Shown here one piece after another: positions 14,283-22,717 of a stretch of DNA of 64,000 nt. The position numbers were made by a program, and so were the translations under genes. This DNA is from Micromonospora olivasterospora (GTDB lineage Bacteria; Actinomycetota; Actinomycetes; Mycobacteriales; Micromonosporaceae), in the NCBI RefSeq assembly GCF_007830265.1, contig NZ_VLKE01000001.1, forward strand, positions 930,001 through 994,000. The letters are read 5' to 3'. The notes under the pieces are model-generated. The model was not told where the DNA came from. It made no database searches and worked only from the letters and a program-made list of their open reading frames with translations. The first letter of the stretch is position 1. Each line of letters opens with the position of its first letter.

Positions 14283-14338
14283 TCGTCTCGATGGCCGGCA
14301 ACGGCGTATTGATTTCCACGAAACGATGGACCGGCATG

Positions 14339-14354
14339 CTCTAGGTATGTAGAG
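14339..14354. promoter_or_regulatory. Candidate PadR operator
   Basis: CTCTA and TAGAG flank a 6-base centre GGTATG, eight bases before the padR start codon. A palindrome overlapping the likely promoter fits autoregulation by the PadR-like protein. The site is AT-rich relative to its surroundings. Binding is inferred, not shown. Confidence 0.45.
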
Positions 14355-14361
14355 TTTGGAT

Positions 14362-14721
14362 ATGCCGCGCATCCGAGACACCTCCCCCCAGACGCTGCGC
14401 GTCCTCCAGGCCCTGTTGCACGATCCGCAGGAATGGCGGTACGGCTACGACCTGAGCAAGGAGACCGGCCTTGCCTCCGGCACCCTCTACCCGATCCTGA
14501 TGCGACTGTCGGAACGCGAACTGCTCGACGCGCAGTGGACCCCGCCTGCCCGCCCTGGCCTGCCGGCCCGGCACACCTACCGTCTGACCGGCGAGGGCAT
14601 GCGGCTGGCACGGGAGCGGCTAACCGCACGGACCGAGGCAGTACAGGCCAAACCGGCCACCGGGCGACTACGCCAAGCGATGGAGGCTTTCCTCACGCCG
14701 CTGAGCGGATACGCCCGATGA
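14362..14721 (+). CDS. PadR-family transcriptional regulator
   Basis: The 119-residue protein begins MPRIRDTSPQTLRVLQALLH and has the PadR winged helix with GYDLSKETGLASGTLYPILM followed by LPARHTYRLTGEG. PadR proteins usually repress nearby transporter or stress genes and are released by a ligand. Its stop overlaps the start of the next gene by four bases (ATGA), so it is the first gene of an operon running to 19035. No Shine-Dalgarno site is evident before the ATG, which suggests a short-leader or leaderless message. Confidence 0.9.
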   Translation: MPRIRDTSPQTLRVLQALLHDPQEWRYGYDLSKETGLASGTLYPILMRLSERELLDAQWTPPARPGLPARHTYRLTGEGMRLARERLTARTEAVQAKPATGRLRQAMEAFLTPLSGYAR

Positions 14722-15431
14722 CCGCCAACGGAATGCAGCGACGGATCCGCGCCGCCTCTCACGCGCTGCTGGTAGCGGTTGTGCGTGGCAGGGGCAATCG
14801 CGGCGGAGCATGGGGCGAGGCAATCCTCGCCGAGCACGACCAGACGACCGGGACGATCGAAGCGGTCCGCTGGACGATGAGCTCCCTCCGCGTCGTGCTT
14901 CGCGAGCGGCAGGGGCGACGGGCTGCCCAAATTAGCCCGGTCAGGCGTATGCGACTGTCGCAACGGCTGGCCGCCTCGGCGCTGGTGGCAGCCGTGGCCG
15001 GGGTACTGATTCAGCAGTTCGTCGTCGGCCTCACCCCGGTTCAGTCCATTGCGATGGAGCCCACGCTACGGGTCGACGACCGTGTCGTGGTCGACCGCAT
15101 CGCGTTCCGCCTGCTCCACCTCAACCACGGCGATGTCGTACTGCTTCGCGGCGAAGATGGCATGGCCAGCGCTCTCCAGCGCGTGGTGGGACTCCCCGGG
15201 GACCAACTCTCGTGCGACCGGGGCCGACTGTACCGCAACAGCGAGCAGGTCGAGGAGGCCTACCTGAACGCGAAAGACCGGACCGAGTGTTCCCCCGTCA
15301 CCGTACCGGCCGAGACGGTCTATGTGATGGGCGACGGTCGTGGGGTGGCCCGGGATTCCCGTGAGTATGGGCCCATACCGCAGGACCGGGTGATCGGCCG
15401 GGTCCTGAGTCGAATCTGGCCGATGGGGTAA
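14718..15431 (+). CDS. Signal peptidase I-like protein without catalytic dyad
   Basis: The 237-residue protein has an N-terminal region of about 75 residues (AWGEAILAEHDQTTGTIEAV), one transmembrane helix at about 84-104, and an S26 signal-peptidase fold. Conserved boxes are easily seen: QSIAMEPTL, LQRVVGLPGD and GDGRGVARDSREYGP. In active enzymes the Met of the first box is preceded by the nucleophilic Ser and the second box carries the general-base Lys. Here these are Ala112 and Gln154, so proteolysis by the Ser-Lys mechanism should be impossible. It overlaps padR by four bases and precedes a secreted protein and an ABC exporter, so it may act as a non-catalytic binding or chaperone factor. 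Confidence 0.85.
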   Translation: MTANGMQRRIRAASHALLVAVVRGRGNRGGAWGEAILAEHDQTTGTIEAVRWTMSSLRVVLRERQGRRAAQISPVRRMRLSQRLAASALVAAVAGVLIQQFVVGLTPVQSIAMEPTLRVDDRVVVDRIAFRLLHLNHGDVVLLRGEDGMASALQRVVGLPGDQLSCDRGRLYRNSEQVEEAYLNAKDRTECSPVTVPAETVYVMGDGRGVARDSREYGPIPQDRVIGRVLSRIWPMG

Positions 15432-15625
15432 CAACACCACCAAGTCCGACCCGTCTTGCTCGACGCGACCATCAATAGACGCCATCAGCGGCTAGCAGCC
15501 GTCCACCATTCCAGCGAACACGGAGGGTAGCAGGGTTGTAAAAGATTGAGGTTTATGGTTGATCTCTTCGGGCGCCCACCCTCGAATCGTCGAATTTCTT
15601 GAGCGCCAAACGGGGAGGTACACCC

Positions 15626-16045
15626 TTGACCAGGGGTAAGAAACTAGTCGCTACCGCCGGCCTGTCCGCAGCATTCGTACTCGGATTCGCATCCACGGCC
15701 CACGCATTGGGCAGCGGCCCGCTGAATCTCGACAACGGCACGGGCCACTTCTCAGGGCAGTGGGAGTTCTATCCGCAGGGTACCGGCCACGGGGGCCTGC
15801 ACGTCTGGGGAAGCGTCTGCGACGACTCCGCAGACGGCAACGGCGTCTACGGCCAGGGCCGGGTGCACGGGCTGAGCTGGTCCAGCCAGCGCGGGGACAG
15901 CAACGGCAGCGCGGCTGGATGTGGGTCCGAGAATCGCGAGTTCTACGATTCCGCGACGACGTACTCGAGCTACGGCTACTATCAGGTATGCACTGACGAT
16001 CTTGGATCGGACACCTGCGACGTCTCGGCTCGACTCAACCGATAA
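15626..16045 (+). CDS. Secreted four-cysteine protein of unknown function
   Basis: The TTG at 15626 is eight bases after GGGGAGG and gives 139 residues. A Sec signal peptide is clear: MTRGKKLVATAGLSAAFVLG, then FASTAHA with likely cleavage after residue 27. The mature part is about 112 residues, rich in Gly, Ser, Tyr and Trp, with four cysteines at 65, 99, 122 and 131 that could form two disulfides. I recognise no family. Exported small proteins next to ABC/FtsX pairs are often bacteriocin-like, and lactococcin-972 clusters have a similar gene order, but the sequence does not look like lactococcin 972. Function remains open. Confidence 0.75.
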   Translation: MTRGKKLVATAGLSAAFVLGFASTAHALGSGPLNLDNGTGHFSGQWEFYPQGTGHGGLHVWGSVCDDSADGNGVYGQGRVHGLSWSSQRGDSNGSAAGCGSENREFYDSATTYSSYGYYQVCTDDLGSDTCDVSARLNR

Positions 16046-16072
16046 CTGTTTCCTGCGTAGTTAAGGAAAACC

Positions 16073-16726
16073 GTGCTCTCAGCGGAAAAACTGACGCTGA
16101 GCTTCGGTAAGACGGTGGCGCTCGCAGGAGCGAGCGCCACCGTCCACCGCGGCGAGGTATTAGCCCTGGTCGGCCCGAGCGGTTCCGGCAAGTCCACGAT
16201 GCTCTACTGCATGGCCGGGCTGCTCGATCCCGATGGCGGCAAGGTCGAGTTTGACGGCAGAATCCTCACGAAGCTTAACGACGACGTCCGCTCCGATTTG
16301 CGTCGCCGCGAGTTCGGGTTCGTGTTCCAGTTCGCTGAACTCGTACCTGAGTTGTCACTCCGAGAGAACGTGTCATTGCCCTTGGAACTCAACGGCGTTT
16401 CGCGCCGGGAACGTGAAGCACGAGTGGACGAACTGCTGGATCGGCTCGGCATCGCGGAGCAGGCGGGACGCCGCCCGGCCAAGGTGTCCGGCGGGCAGGC
16501 GCAACGCGCCGCCGTCGCGCGCGCCATGGCGCACCGGCCCCGCGTCCTGTTCGCCGACGAGCCCACTGGCGCGCTGGACAGCCAGAACGGCACTCTCGTC
16601 CTCGACGCGCTGCTCGATCTGGCGGCGGTTGACGAGACCGCCGTCGTCCTGGTGACACACGATCCGGAGATCTCGGCACGCGCGCACCGGGTCGTCCAGA
16701 TGCGTGACGGCGTGGCGACCTCATGA
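16073..16726 (+). CDS. ABC transporter ATP-binding protein (MacB/LolD type)
   Basis: The 217-residue protein starts at a GTG. It has Walker A GPSGSGKST (34-42), the signature VSGGQAQR, Walker B VLFADEP and the switch VTHD. The length and the FVFQFAEL Q-loop context are those of LolD/MacB/FtsE-type ATPases that work with FtsX-like permeases rather than classical importers. Its end overlaps the permease start by four bases. It powers the membrane partner on the cytoplasmic side. Confidence 0.92.
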   Translation: MLSAEKLTLSFGKTVALAGASATVHRGEVLALVGPSGSGKSTMLYCMAGLLDPDGGKVEFDGRILTKLNDDVRSDLRRREFGFVFQFAELVPELSLRENVSLPLELNGVSRREREARVDELLDRLGIAEQAGRRPAKVSGGQAQRAAVARAMAHRPRVLFADEPTGALDSQNGTLVLDALLDLAAVDETAVVLVTHDPEISARAHRVVQMRDGVATS

Positions 16727-19035
16727 GCCGCACCTTCTCTCTCGCCATCCGCCTGGTACGCGGCGGAGGCGCGGCGGGGATCACACGTCTCGCTCTGATG
16801 ACAGTGGGTATGGCGGTCGGCGTGGCCGTCACGACCCTCGTCGTAATGCTGCCGTCGGTCCTCGATCACCGTGCCGCCGCCTCGTCCGGCCGGTTGCCTG
16901 CTCCCGCAGGCGAGGCGGGCAGCGCGAAGCCGACGTTCATGTTCGCCCTCGTGGAAGACTCCTGGAAGGGACAACGATTCAGCCGGGTCCTTCTCGCCCC
17001 GTTAGGCACTGACGCCGTGCCGCCGCCGGGAGTCGAGAGATTTCCGGGTCCTGGCGAGATCATCGCCTCCCCGTCCGCAGCCGCCCTGCTCGCCGACCAT
17101 CCCGAACTAGGTGCACGGGTTCCGGGACGGGTAACGAGTGAGATCGCCGCCGAGGGCCTGCTAGCCCCCGACGAAATGTTCGCTTACGTCGGTGTGACAC
17201 CCGACCGCCTGGAGGGCGGCAGCGAGGCATCCGGGTTTGGGGTCGGCTTTCAGGACGACATCGTCCGCGAAACGTTCGACGGCGTCGCACGTGAACTCGG
17301 CGTCCTGGTCCTCACGCCTGCGCTGATCTACGTGGTTGTCTGTGGCCGCCTCGCTGCGGCGACCAGGGCCCGGCGCTATGCCGCCCTGCGCCTGATCGGA
17401 CTGCGCCGCAGCCACGTGCTGCGGATCGCCGCAACCGAATCGGCCATCACCGGCGGGTTCGGCGCACTGGTCGGCGTTCTGCTCTATGAGCAACTATCCC
17501 CTCCAGTGGCTCGCAGTGGCGCCCTCGGGTTCACGTGGTACCCAGAAGTTAGCGACGTCGGGGCCGCCGGCACGGCGGCGATAGTGCTGCTCGCCGCCGT
17601 CGTTTCTGCATTGGTGGGGGCGCTGGGGTTGCGGCAGAGCCTGAACCGACCGGTTGCGGCGCGGGCTGCGGTGGAGGAACCACCTGCCCGCTGGTGGTTG
17701 CTACTCCCCCTTATTCTCGGCCTCGGTCTCATGCTGCCCGTCATCCTGCGACGGGTCACCACCGGTGGAACCACCCGGGTGGTCTACACGGATGTCCAGA
17801 TCGCGATGGTGCTCACGGGCATGGTCCTCGCCGGGGTAGGTGTCGTGCTGGCGATCCGACCCATCGTCTCGTCGACGGCCCGGGCGGTCGCTCATCCCTC
17901 CCTACCTCTTACGCTCCGACTCGCCGGCCGCCGGCTGAGCTGCACACCCTCGAGTACCCTGCGGCTGTTGTCCGGCTTGGCGGTGCTCGTGCTCGTTGGC
18001 GGCATCAGCGCTGGCGTCCTGCGCGATGACGAACTCGCTGCGGGCCCGGAGGTCGACGCATTCACTGTGACGGTTGACGCGCGGCGGGCGGCGACGCCTC
18101 AGGTTCGAGAGAAGGTAGCCCTGGTTCCCGCGCAGCACCGCTGGACCGTCCAGTACTCGATCGCCAGGCCGCCTGCCAACGTCGGTCCGCCGACGACGGC
18201 GGCGGACCGGGTAGCGATGTTCGGGGTGGCTATGGTGACGGCGCCCTGCGCGCAGATTCGAGTTATCACCAAATCCGCGCTCCCCGGCTGTCGCGACGGT
18301 GCAGACTACCGCCTAGTCGACGCCGAACTTCACAACACCGCCGAGGACATCCCGCCGGGGGTCATGGTGCAGTTCGCCGATGACAAGGGTGAAAGCAACT
18401 CGTACCGGACGCCGGAGGCCTCACTTGTGGTGGACGACCTTGAGCAGTCACAGCTGCACTTGAGCAGTGCGATCCTCGTCGCGGCGGAGCGACCGCGGTT
18501 CGGCTGGCCTGAAAATCTGTTGCTGAACTTTGTGGTGGCGGAGCCGGAGTCAAACGTCGAGGCGTTCAAGTCGGCCGTGCTGGCCAACGACCCTACGGCC
18601 GCCATTGATGTCCAACTGCGCAACATTCCCGCGCTCGAGGCATATCGGGCACATCGGGGAACCATCAGCACCGGCGTCATGATCGGGTTTTTCCTCGGCG
18701 CTGCGGCATTCCTCATCGCCGTCGTCGACCGGGCGATCGATCGCCGCCGCGACGTCATCAGCCTCCTGGTGCTGGGCATGCCGCTCCGCTCGGTGCGCGC
18801 CAGCCAACTGTTTCACATTACGCTGCCTCTCATTGCCGTTCTCGTGGTGACCGTGGCGGTTGGACACGTAGCCGGCAACGCATGGCTCCAGCTCAACGGC
18901 CGGTACAGCGGCTGGTACGGCGGCACCCTCAAGACAATGCTGCCGCTCGCCGGGCTTGCGGCCCTCGCCGCGATCAGTGCCGCGCCGGTCGTTGTCGGCA
19001 AGACGATCCGGGCGGAGGACATGCGTCGCGAATGA
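16723..19035 (+). CDS. FtsX/MacB-type permease
   Basis: The 770-residue membrane protein has an N-terminal transmembrane segment (about 20-45) and an extracytoplasmic region. A first FtsX core follows around residues 185-300 (RYAALRLIGLRRSHVLRI). A second half has helices near 330-385, a large extracytoplasmic part and a final FtsX core from about 645 (DVISLLVLGMPLRSVRASQL). This two-core layout is that of MacB-like or bacteriocin-immunity-type exporters that act on substrates at the outer face of the membrane. It is the last gene of the padR operon and ends at a terminator. Confidence 0.88.
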   Translation: MSRTFSLAIRLVRGGGAAGITRLALMTVGMAVGVAVTTLVVMLPSVLDHRAAASSGRLPAPAGEAGSAKPTFMFALVEDSWKGQRFSRVLLAPLGTDAVPPPGVERFPGPGEIIASPSAAALLADHPELGARVPGRVTSEIAAEGLLAPDEMFAYVGVTPDRLEGGSEASGFGVGFQDDIVRETFDGVARELGVLVLTPALIYVVVCGRLAAATRARRYAALRLIGLRRSHVLRIAATESAITGGFGALVGVLLYEQLSPPVARSGALGFTWYPEVSDVGAAGTAAIVLLAAVVSALVGALGLRQSLNRPVAARAAVEEPPARWWLLLPLILGLGLMLPVILRRVTTGGTTRVVYTDVQIAMVLTGMVLAGVGVVLAIRPIVSSTARAVAHPSLPLTLRLAGRRLSCTPSSTLRLLSGLAVLVLVGGISAGVLRDDELAAGPEVDAFTVTVDARRAATPQVREKVALVPAQHRWTVQYSIARPPANVGPPTTAADRVAMFGVAMVTAPCAQIRVITKSALPGCRDGADYRLVDAELHNTAEDIPPGVMVQFADDKGESNSYRTPEASLVVDDLEQSQLHLSSAILVAAERPRFGWPENLLLNFVVAEPESNVEAFKSAVLANDPTAAIDVQLRNIPALEAYRAHRGTISTGVMIGFFLGAAAFLIAVVDRAIDRRRDVISLLVLGMPLRSVRASQLFHITLPLIAVLVVTVAVGHVAGNAWLQLNGRYSGWYGGTLKTMLPLAGLAALAAISAAPVVVGKTIRAEDMRRE

Positions 19036-19051
19036 CGAGGAGCGGAACGAC

Positions 19052-21182: not shown

Positions 21183-22717
21183 AACGCCGTTGCGTTTGGC
21201 GATCGGCGGATGAGTCAAGGGGGACTTTGAAGACGCGAACGGGACTTCTGATAGATCAACTTGTGTCGAGCAAGAAGATCATGCCTCAGGAGTCCCGTTG
21301 CAGGAGAAGTCTGTCATCACCCGGTCGATCGAGGTAGCCGGGGGTGTGCACGCGCCCGGACATCTGGGCGAGTTGACCCAGATCATCGACTTCGACCTGG
21401 TCGACGCGGTGCTGGAAGAAACCGGGACACGCGAGAAGCGGCTGCGGCTGCTGCCGTCTCGGGTCGTGGTGTACTTCGTCCTCGCACTCGCCCTGCTCGA
21501 CCGCTGTTCCTACCGAGCGACGTGGGGGAAGCTGACCGCGGCCCTGGCCGGCTTGTGCCTGACGCGGCCGAGTATCTCCTCACTGTCACGCGCTCGCCGC
21601 CGGGTCGGAGTAGCGCCGCTACGGCGCCTGTTCGAGACCCTGGCCGGTGCCGTCGGTCTGCTCGGCCAGCCCGGCGTGTTCTACCGGGGCCTGCGTACCG
21701 TGGCCATCGACGGCACCCACCTGCACGTGCCCGACGAGGAACGGGTCACCTGGCGCTACCCCAAACGCGTAGGAGACAAGCTGGAGTTCGGCTACCCGCT
21801 GCTACGGCTGCTCGTGGTGATCGAGTGTGGGACCCGCGCCCTGCTCGCCGCGGCCTTCGGCCCCGAAACAGAAGGCGAACTGGCTTACGCGCGGCGGCTT
21901 CTGGGCGTCCTGGACCGCACGATGCTGCTGCTGGCCGACGCCGGCTTCGACGCCGCGGAATTCCTGCGCGACGTCGGCGCCACCGGCGCGCAGTTCCTGG
22001 TCCGCTCATCCGCCCGCCGCTGCCCGACCATCCAGCGTCGCCTACCCGACGGCTCCTACCTGGCCCGCATCGGCTACGGCAGCCTACCCGCTCTCATCCT
22101 GGTGCGGGTCATCGAAGCGCAGGTCACCGTCACACTGGCCGACGGCAGCCTGCGGCGCGAGCAGTGGCGGCTGATCACCAGCCTGACAGACCACACCCGC
22201 TACCCCGCCCACGAACTCGTGGACCTCTACCACGAACGCTGGCAGGCCGAAACCACGTATTTCTCGATCAAAGCGACCATGCTCGACGGCCGCGTCCTGC
22301 GCTCCCGCAGCATCCCCGGGATCGAGCAGGAGGTGTACGCCCTGCTCACCGCCTACCAGGCCCTCATCCGCGCGGCAGCAGACGCCACCTGCACCCAGCC
22401 CGGCCTGGACATGGACCGGATCAGCTTCACCGTCCTCATCGACGCCGCCGCCGACACGATCACCACCGCCAGCGGAATCCTTCCCGGCAGCTCAACCGAC
22501 CTCCTCGGCACGATAGGCCACGCCGCGCTGGCCGACCTCCTACCCGCCTGGCGCCGCCCTCGAATCAAGGCCCGCTCCCGCAAGAACCCGACCAGCAAGT
22601 ACAGCCCGAACGCCGGACAGCACCCCGCAACCACGCAGACCTACACCTTCCACGCCGACATCACAATCTTCGAAAAGGGGCTTGCCTCCCGCTCACGGCG
22701 CTAAACGCAACGGTGTT
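21183..22717 (+). mobile_element. IS4-family insertion sequence, apparently complete
   Basis: The 1535-bp element is bounded by 19-bp terminal inverted repeats, AACGCCGTTGCGTTTGGCG at 21183-21201 and its complement at 22699-22717 with two mismatches. It is flanked by the perfect 12-bp direct repeat GCCACCCTCGCC. It carries one intact transposase gene whose stop codon lies in the right repeat. The identical flanks point to a fairly recent insertion downstream of the GluRS gene. Confidence 0.92.
21298..22704 (+). CDS. IS4-family DDE transposase
   Basis: The 468-residue protein has an N-terminal IS4 helper domain (about 30-120) and a catalytic DDE core. Visible acids are Asp in TVAIDGTHLH, Asp in LLADAGFD, and Glu in YHERWQAETTYFSIK, which fits the Y-(2)-R-(3)-E-(6)-K signature of IS4 enzymes. 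The start is an ATG or TTG-type codon near 21298, shortly after the left repeat. The gene appears intact. Confidence 0.92.
   Translation: MQEKSVITRSIEVAGGVHAPGHLGELTQIIDFDLVDAVLEETGTREKRLRLLPSRVVVYFVLALALLDRCSYRATWGKLTAALAGLCLTRPSISSLSRARRRVGVAPLRRLFETLAGAVGLLGQPGVFYRGLRTVAIDGTHLHVPDEERVTWRYPKRVGDKLEFGYPLLRLLVVIECGTRALLAAAFGPETEGELAYARRLLGVLDRTMLLLADAGFDAAEFLRDVGATGAQFLVRSSARRCPTIQRRLPDGSYLARIGYGSLPALILVRVIEAQVTVTLADGSLRREQWRLITSLTDHTRYPAHELVDLYHERWQAETTYFSIKATMLDGRVLRSRSIPGIEQEVYALLTAYQALIRAAADATCTQPGLDMDRISFTVLIDAAADTITTASGILPGSSTDLLGTIGHAALADLLPAWRRPRIKARSRKNPTSKYSPNAGQHPATTQTYTFHADITIFEKGLASRSRR

Follow-up and report, generated by a model that had tools for sequence, protein, structure and literature searches.

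A signal-peptidase-like protein without its catalytic dyad, paired with a PadR regulator in a five-gene cassette of Micromonospora olivasterospora

The five-gene cassette and its insertion site

The window analysed here, a stretch of 64,000 nucleotides from Micromonospora olivasterospora (contig NZ_VLKE01000001.1, positions 930,001 to 994,000), was found to carry a cassette of five genes on the plus strand. These encode a PadR-family regulator, a signal-peptidase-like protein (termed S26N), a small secreted protein, an ATP-binding cassette (ABC) ATPase and an FtsX-type permease. S26N is interpreted below as a disarmed signal-peptidase sensor that relays to PadR within an autoregulated cassette, a reading to which we assign a probability of about 0.5. 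The features of the cassette are as follows.

About 14288-19047, plus strand: five-gene cassette, acquired horizontally and lying between aceE and the SRPBCC/gltX region (borders from alignment with genome G256)
14339-14357, plus strand: candidate PadR operator region, 4 bp before the padR start
14362-14721, plus strand: padR, PadR-family regulator, 119 aa (Pfam PF03551, 37.2 bits against a cut-off of 27)
14718-15431, plus strand: S26N, signal-peptidase-like protein, 237 aa, overlapping padR by 4 bp
15626-16045, plus strand: gene of the secreted protein, 139-aa precursor, TTG start
16073-16726, plus strand: ABC ATPase of the LolD/MacB/FtsE class, 217 aa (PF00005)
16723-19035, plus strand: FtsX-type permease, 770 aa (PF02687), overlapping the ABC ATPase gene by 4 bp

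Comparison with G256, which is without the cassette, indicated that the inserted segment consists of exactly the five genes and nothing else. Within the flanks fetched, aceE adjoins the SRPBCC gene in nine of 12 same-genus loci found via the downstream SRPBCC gene, and the distance between the two is 136-239 bp in five measured loci compared with about 4.9 kb in the window; one aceE-SRPBCC locus (L212) has a longer gap of some 700-800 bp. The G+C content at third codon positions is 0.78-0.81 for all five cassette genes against 0.97 for the flanking aceE and gltX. The cassette is cleanly inserted and was horizontally acquired.

The original prediction, made from the letters of the sequence and its open reading frames, had described five genes of one strand at 14362-19035, and these were confirmed on the plus strand in the order PadR, S26-like, secreted protein, ABC and FtsX. 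It had also described them as overlapping or separated by short gaps, which is true of the two 4-bp overlaps but not of the 194-bp gap which separates the S26N gene from the secreted-protein gene. The terminator that it placed at the end of the operon was not recovered there by a consensus scan. A hairpin does lie just 3' of 19047, but the same hairpin is present in the cassette-free G256 and it therefore belongs to the host flank and is not a cassette terminator. Further downstream, an IS4-type transposase gene (21298-22704; Pfam Nterm_IS4 and DDE_Tnp_1) is located directly 3' of gltX, about 2.3 kb from the cassette.

S26N and its PadR neighbour

S26N matches Pfam Peptidase_S26 at 105.3 bits and NCBIfam TIGR02227 at 117.1 bits (cut-off 47). 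Its predicted structure, with a predicted local distance difference test score (pLDDT) of 91.3, comprises three helices, one transmembrane helix and a signal-peptidase fold, the last also backed by a structure match. The three helices (residues 3-23, 31-40 and 46-71) form an N-terminal domain, followed by the transmembrane helix at residues 74-101. It had been proposed that Ala112 and Gln154 take the place of Ser and Lys while the other boxes are intact; alignment with solved signal peptidases bears this out, as both residues align with the catalytic Ser and Lys and box E (GDxRxxxxDSR) is retained. The protein in the window is thus a signal peptidase by fold, not by active site. In the outside domain of PadR-linked S26 proteins Cys166 and Cys191 were seen to be a near-invariant pair, which likely forms a disulfide.

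The distribution of the protein was surveyed in 354 genomes of the Micromonosporaceae, a family which includes Couchioplanes and Planosporangium. With the S26 protein of the window as query, S26N was found in 45 of these (E value of 5e-33 or better), and in 44 of the 45 the match begins no later than residue 29 and thereby covers the core of the N-terminal domain. Strong matches to this domain (E 2.7e-9 or better) were found on S26N only, in 20 of 20 bearing genomes. A padR gene lies directly upstream on the same strand in 29 of the 30 best loci (window included), while relatives of the secreted protein, the ABC ATPase and FtsX occur in the 1.5-kb flanks at only two of them, the window and genome G311. 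The cassette is made up of two modules, a PadR-S26N pair and a secreted protein-ABC-FtsX core. The expectation that many genomes would share all five genes together with both changes, Ser to Ala and Lys to Gln, was not borne out: the five-gene order is present in two of the 354 genomes (window and G311), and within it the Ala/Gln pair is confined to the window, G311 having Ser/Gln.

Loss of the dyad was examined in 31 S26 proteins of this kind (type A), namely those of the 30 best loci without the near-copies L051 and L063 and with P0006-P0008 added. Of these, 21 retain the catalytic Ser, 17 the Lys and 14 both residues, and the altered dyads are diverse (AQ, SQ, SY, ER, AR, GK, SI, TL, SV, AK, SR, GR, SM and AD), whereas W32, G33, A35, E39, W52, Cys166 and Cys191 are invariant. 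The type-A tree calls for at least six changes between intact and lost dyad, two of which are forced by strongly supported branches alone. At the 30 best loci themselves the dyad is intact in 15. A second set, rich in Actinoplanes and overlapping the first, was composed of the best 120 listed of 2077 family-profile matches plus P0008; among its 121 proteins both dyad residues are present in 86, Ser in 88, Lys in 108, Trp32 in 121 and Cys191 in 120. The intact dyad is thus the commoner state in this set, and disarming a recurrent event.

Ratios of nonsynonymous to synonymous substitution rates (dN/dS, NG86 method), which are rough as dS is near saturation in most pairs, were 0.34 for window/G311, 0.36 for window/G338, 0.31 for G311/G338 and 0.30 for one type-B pair (see below). 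These values suggest that the dead S26 proteins are under purifying selection. Judging from the alignments, catalysis appears to be dispensable in S26N and the N-terminal domain and Cys pair to be near-invariant. It had been named as a refutation that homologues keep the dyad and that the changes are unique to a single decayed copy. The dyad is kept at half of the best loci, and of the two five-gene loci only the window has Ala/Gln, but dead S26 proteins recur and show signs of purifying selection. In a separate S26 group of 207-aa proteins (P0055-P0104), common among the homologues, most members have Ala where the catalytic Ser would be and lack the Lys (DDAMEPT ... VxRII).

Upstream of padR, a perfect inverted repeat CTCTA-N6-TAGAG (14339-14354) overlaps the conserved 12-mer TATGTAGAGTTT (14346-14357). 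Of the 30 PadR-S26N loci, 26 contain the motif TATGTAGASTTT, and in 24 parsed upstream regions it is situated a few bases 5' of padR. Genome-wide, the operator-like 12-mer was identified in 18 of 20 bearing genomes and at padR-S26N only, with one site per genome except in G018, where two sites share one promoter region; the reversed pattern, used as a control, gave no match in the 20 bearing genomes. In the window genome (G000; 7.07 Mb) the 12-mer is unique, even at one mismatch. In 30 family genomes without a full-length S26N match it occurs once (in G013), which is no more than the single occurrence of the reversed control in these genomes. On this sequence pattern, 14339-14357 is predicted to be a PadR operator at the regulator's own promoter. 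In G013 (locus L230, 61-1463) this sole 12-mer of the control genomes directly follows a different PadR gene and its 352-aa partner. The partner has no Pfam match, and its N-terminus (WPADL...AEWLAEL) resembles the S26N N-terminal domain by eye.

The secreted protein-ABC-FtsX core

The secreted protein has cysteines at positions 65, 99, 122 and 131 of its 139-aa precursor, as originally described. It has no Pfam or NCBIfam match, single relatives give only chance-level Pfam matches (E 1.4 or worse), and no PDB sequence match was obtained at E up to 1. Identification as a lactococcin 972 locus by family model was rejected on the same absence of a Pfam or NCBIfam match. The protein is predicted to be a 7-strand beta-sandwich (AlphaFold2, mean pLDDT 76.1). 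Lactococcin 972 is likewise described as a beta-sandwich (PMC11796350) and was not among the matches listed. A dedicated peptidase seems unnecessary for the secreted protein, as its signal peptide is ordinary-looking (by eye) and two S26 proteins encoded in the window genome retain both Ser and Lys. A maturation system had been among the roles suggested for the locus; the data favour PadR-S26N as a regulatory pair over a maturation enzyme. The four-Cys protein is one of a wider, as yet unnamed, actinobacterial family. Shorter or partial relatives (L037, L038, L155, L156, L158, L159 and L160), several with CDxxxDGNGVY and GCG motifs, were observed which, within the stretches fetched, are not beside close relatives of the cassette ABC/FtsX.

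The best NCBIfam model for the ABC ATPase is LolD at 196 bits, which is below the cut-off of 307.75, and a LolCDE lipoprotein extractor was rejected on this cut-off. The FtsX permease has about 9-10 hydrophobic segments in a simple hydropathy plot, with two large loops that are likely outside the membrane. Relatives of it at E 5e-73 or better were found in nine of the 354 genomes; 280 hold some FtsX relative at E 1e-20 or better, mostly from a wider PadR-ABC-FtsX family in the loci viewed.

Intact cores have PadR-S26N upstream in the window and G311, and an S26 protein of another kind (type B) downstream of FtsX in G328 (taken as Planosporangium mesophilum), G012 (Couchioplanes caeruleus) and G091 (Catellatospora sp. 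KI3). Partial or decayed cores were found in G141, in G124 (S26 fragment only), in G314, whose secreted gene is a remnant, and in G076, where no such gene was found. Type-B proteins are without the N-terminal domain, have a second hydrophobic segment near the C-terminus (two proteins checked) and form a clade separate from type A (support 100/100 for each). With the G124 fragment omitted from the count, seven of seven are dead: the Ser is replaced by Val or Ala and the Lys by Leu, Met or Val. A dead S26 protein stands beside every core examined, except in G376 (none) and G124 (fragment only), and disarmed signal-peptidase folds have joined the core twice, separately. The original suggestion of the S26 fold as a non-catalytic partner is supported by this recurrence beside most cores and by the signs of purifying selection. 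The window genome also holds a second, decayed secreted protein-ABC-FtsX-S26 core (L027 7800-14282; G000:C1 about 4991800-4998280), cut by two transposase genes of the DDE_Tnp_4 and ISL3 types.

The sensor reading, its alternatives and known systems

Three features together form a pattern that would be expected of a sensor pair: an operator-like site at the promoter of padR itself, a near-constant neighbour with a conserved three-helix N-terminal domain, and an outside fold kept without its chemistry. S26N would be embedded in the membrane, with the three-helix domain in the cytosol and the signal-peptidase fold outside, and may act as a receptor because the peptide-binding fold is kept while cutting is lost. 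Its ligand is probably an uncleaved signal peptide, or else the secreted protein of the cassette itself; a role as signal-peptide receptor is plausible for a disarmed signal peptidase. Occupancy would pass through the three-helix domain to PadR by presumed contact, and PadR, on a single operator at its own promoter, would control the operon with a presumed sign of regulation, read-through across the 194-bp gap reaching the downstream genes. The ABC/FtsX pump may then move or clear the secreted protein or another envelope compound. That PadR-S26N is a minimal pair for membrane signalling, in which the cleavage-dead fold binds such ligands and informs PadR and secretion status would become a transcriptional input, is proposed tentatively.

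Several observations weigh against the sensor reading. None of eight N-terminal domains gave a Pfam match at E up to 10, in a search where HMMER filters drop most weak matches, and residues 46-71 of S26N contain no GxP motif as in HAAS. The motif TATGTAGASTTT is missing at four of the 30 loci (L050, L051, L061 and L068), no second operator-like site was found 5' of the secreted-protein gene, and a promoter of its own for this gene could lie in the 194-bp gap. As the five-gene linkage is seen in two genomes only, PadR-S26N may have come to lie beside the core by chance, and the core in G376 is without any S26 protein. Finally, many PadR-S26N pairs keep the dyad (15/30 loci; 86/121 proteins), and cutting may matter there.

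The main rival explanation, which is compatible with a sensor and in itself somewhat unlikely, takes the core for a bacteriocin or self-protection cassette like the lactococcin 972 loci. The beta-sandwich protein would be a putative Sec-exported toxin, ABC/FtsX would give immunity and the S26 protein would be an accessory immunity or regulatory factor. A small secreted beta-sandwich protein does adjoin the ABC/FtsX pair, the cassettes are patchy, mobile and often decaying, and similar gene types are described in the cited extracts for the lactococcin 972-like scbABC locus, where the functions of B and C are predicted and not verified (PMC11796350). This explanation gains from G314 and G076, in which the secreted gene is a remnant or was not found while the ABC, FtsX and type-B S26 frames are still open, as expected if immunity outlasts toxin. 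However, neither the secreted protein nor FtsX matches a bacteriocin family model (Pfam, NCBIfam), the ATPase scores 170.9 bits against the 254.85 cut-off of the lactococcin-972 ABC model, and in two Streptomyces (loci L034 and L035) no related ABC/FtsX lies within 10 kb of the gene of the secreted protein. An inducible secretion-stress bypass like AyrRABC, unlikely as it stands, would be a special case of the sensor reading in which a block of the housekeeping signal peptidase leaves preproteins stalled, to be sensed by the dead peptidase and extracted by ABC/FtsX. The logic of autorepressor, membrane relay and ABC transporter is shared with that system as the cited extracts present it (PMC5727409, PMC5013292), LolD is the top-scoring model of the ATPase, and a cleavage-dead signal-peptidase fold would be a natural preprotein receptor; against this, the conserved four-Cys protein is left unexplained and no AyrA (DUF3169) match was found among the five cassette proteins with Pfam.

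It is distinctly improbable that PadR-S26N is an unrelated neighbour carried along by hitchhiking, with dyad loss as neutral decay. The pair usually stands alone and has lost the dyad repeatedly, but the dN/dS values (0.34 for window/G311 and 0.31 for G311/G338) point to purifying selection, the structural boxes and N-terminal domain are intact, the insertion borders enclose exactly the five genes, and other cores carry an S26 protein of a different clade which is likewise dead. The least probable explanation is a SipA-like assembly chaperone, which would retain the secreted protein at the membrane so that it can be assembled on the surface, given that Pfam detected no sortase or pilin among the five proteins and that 28 of 30 PadR-S26N loci are without a relative of the secreted protein, ABC or FtsX within 1.5 kb.

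The function of dead signal-peptidase folds is little understood. In the family described here, dyads range naturally from intact to disarmed within a single setting, beside PadR and with a fixed cytosolic domain, which makes the role of such folds testable. If the sensor reading is true, PadR-based envelope signalling in actinobacteria would gain signal-peptide occupancy as a further input.

Signal-peptidase folds without the catalytic dyad are reported to be encoded in Gram-positive genomes (PMC4049620). SipA of Streptococcus pyogenes (PMC4049620; PDB 4n31) shares with S26N a fold without Ser/Lys and a non-catalytic role, but it is described as serving pilus polymerisation, whereas S26N lies in a PadR operon and has an added cytosolic domain. 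In HAAS-PadR pairs, which have been proposed as an alternative to two-component systems, a PadR is paired with a membrane protein that has a three-helix N-terminal cytosolic domain (PMC11237479). At 29 of 30 loci here a padR gene likewise accompanies the gene of a membrane protein whose N-terminal domain is helical; however, no HAAS/DUF1700 match is detectable, the third helix has no GxP motif, and the sensor would be a single-pass signal-peptidase fold, which the cited extracts do not describe for HAAS-PadR pairs (PMC11237479). In the AyrR-AyrA system of Staphylococcus aureus the build-up of uncleaved preproteins is relayed to an autorepressor, and the stress is relieved by way of an ABC transporter (PMC5727409, PMC5013292). 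That operon also joins autorepressor, membrane relay and ABC transporter in a setting tied to signal-peptide handling, and a conserved site at the promoter of padR is a candidate for an operator of PadR; AyrR is Cro/CI-like, AyrA is a polytopic DUF3169 protein, and no secreted protein or S26 fold is described in the operon in the extracts cited. Lactococcin 972-like loci are described as having a small Sec-type beta-sandwich protein, a predicted immunity protein and a predicted transporter (PMC11796350), from which the cassette differs by the lack of a sequence-model match, by its extra PadR and S26 genes and by four cysteines. S26N thus resembles SipA but lies outside a pilus cluster, PadR-S26N would work in the manner of a HAAS-PadR pair but gives no HAAS sequence match, and by model cut-offs the cassette is neither a lactococcin 972 locus nor a Lol system.

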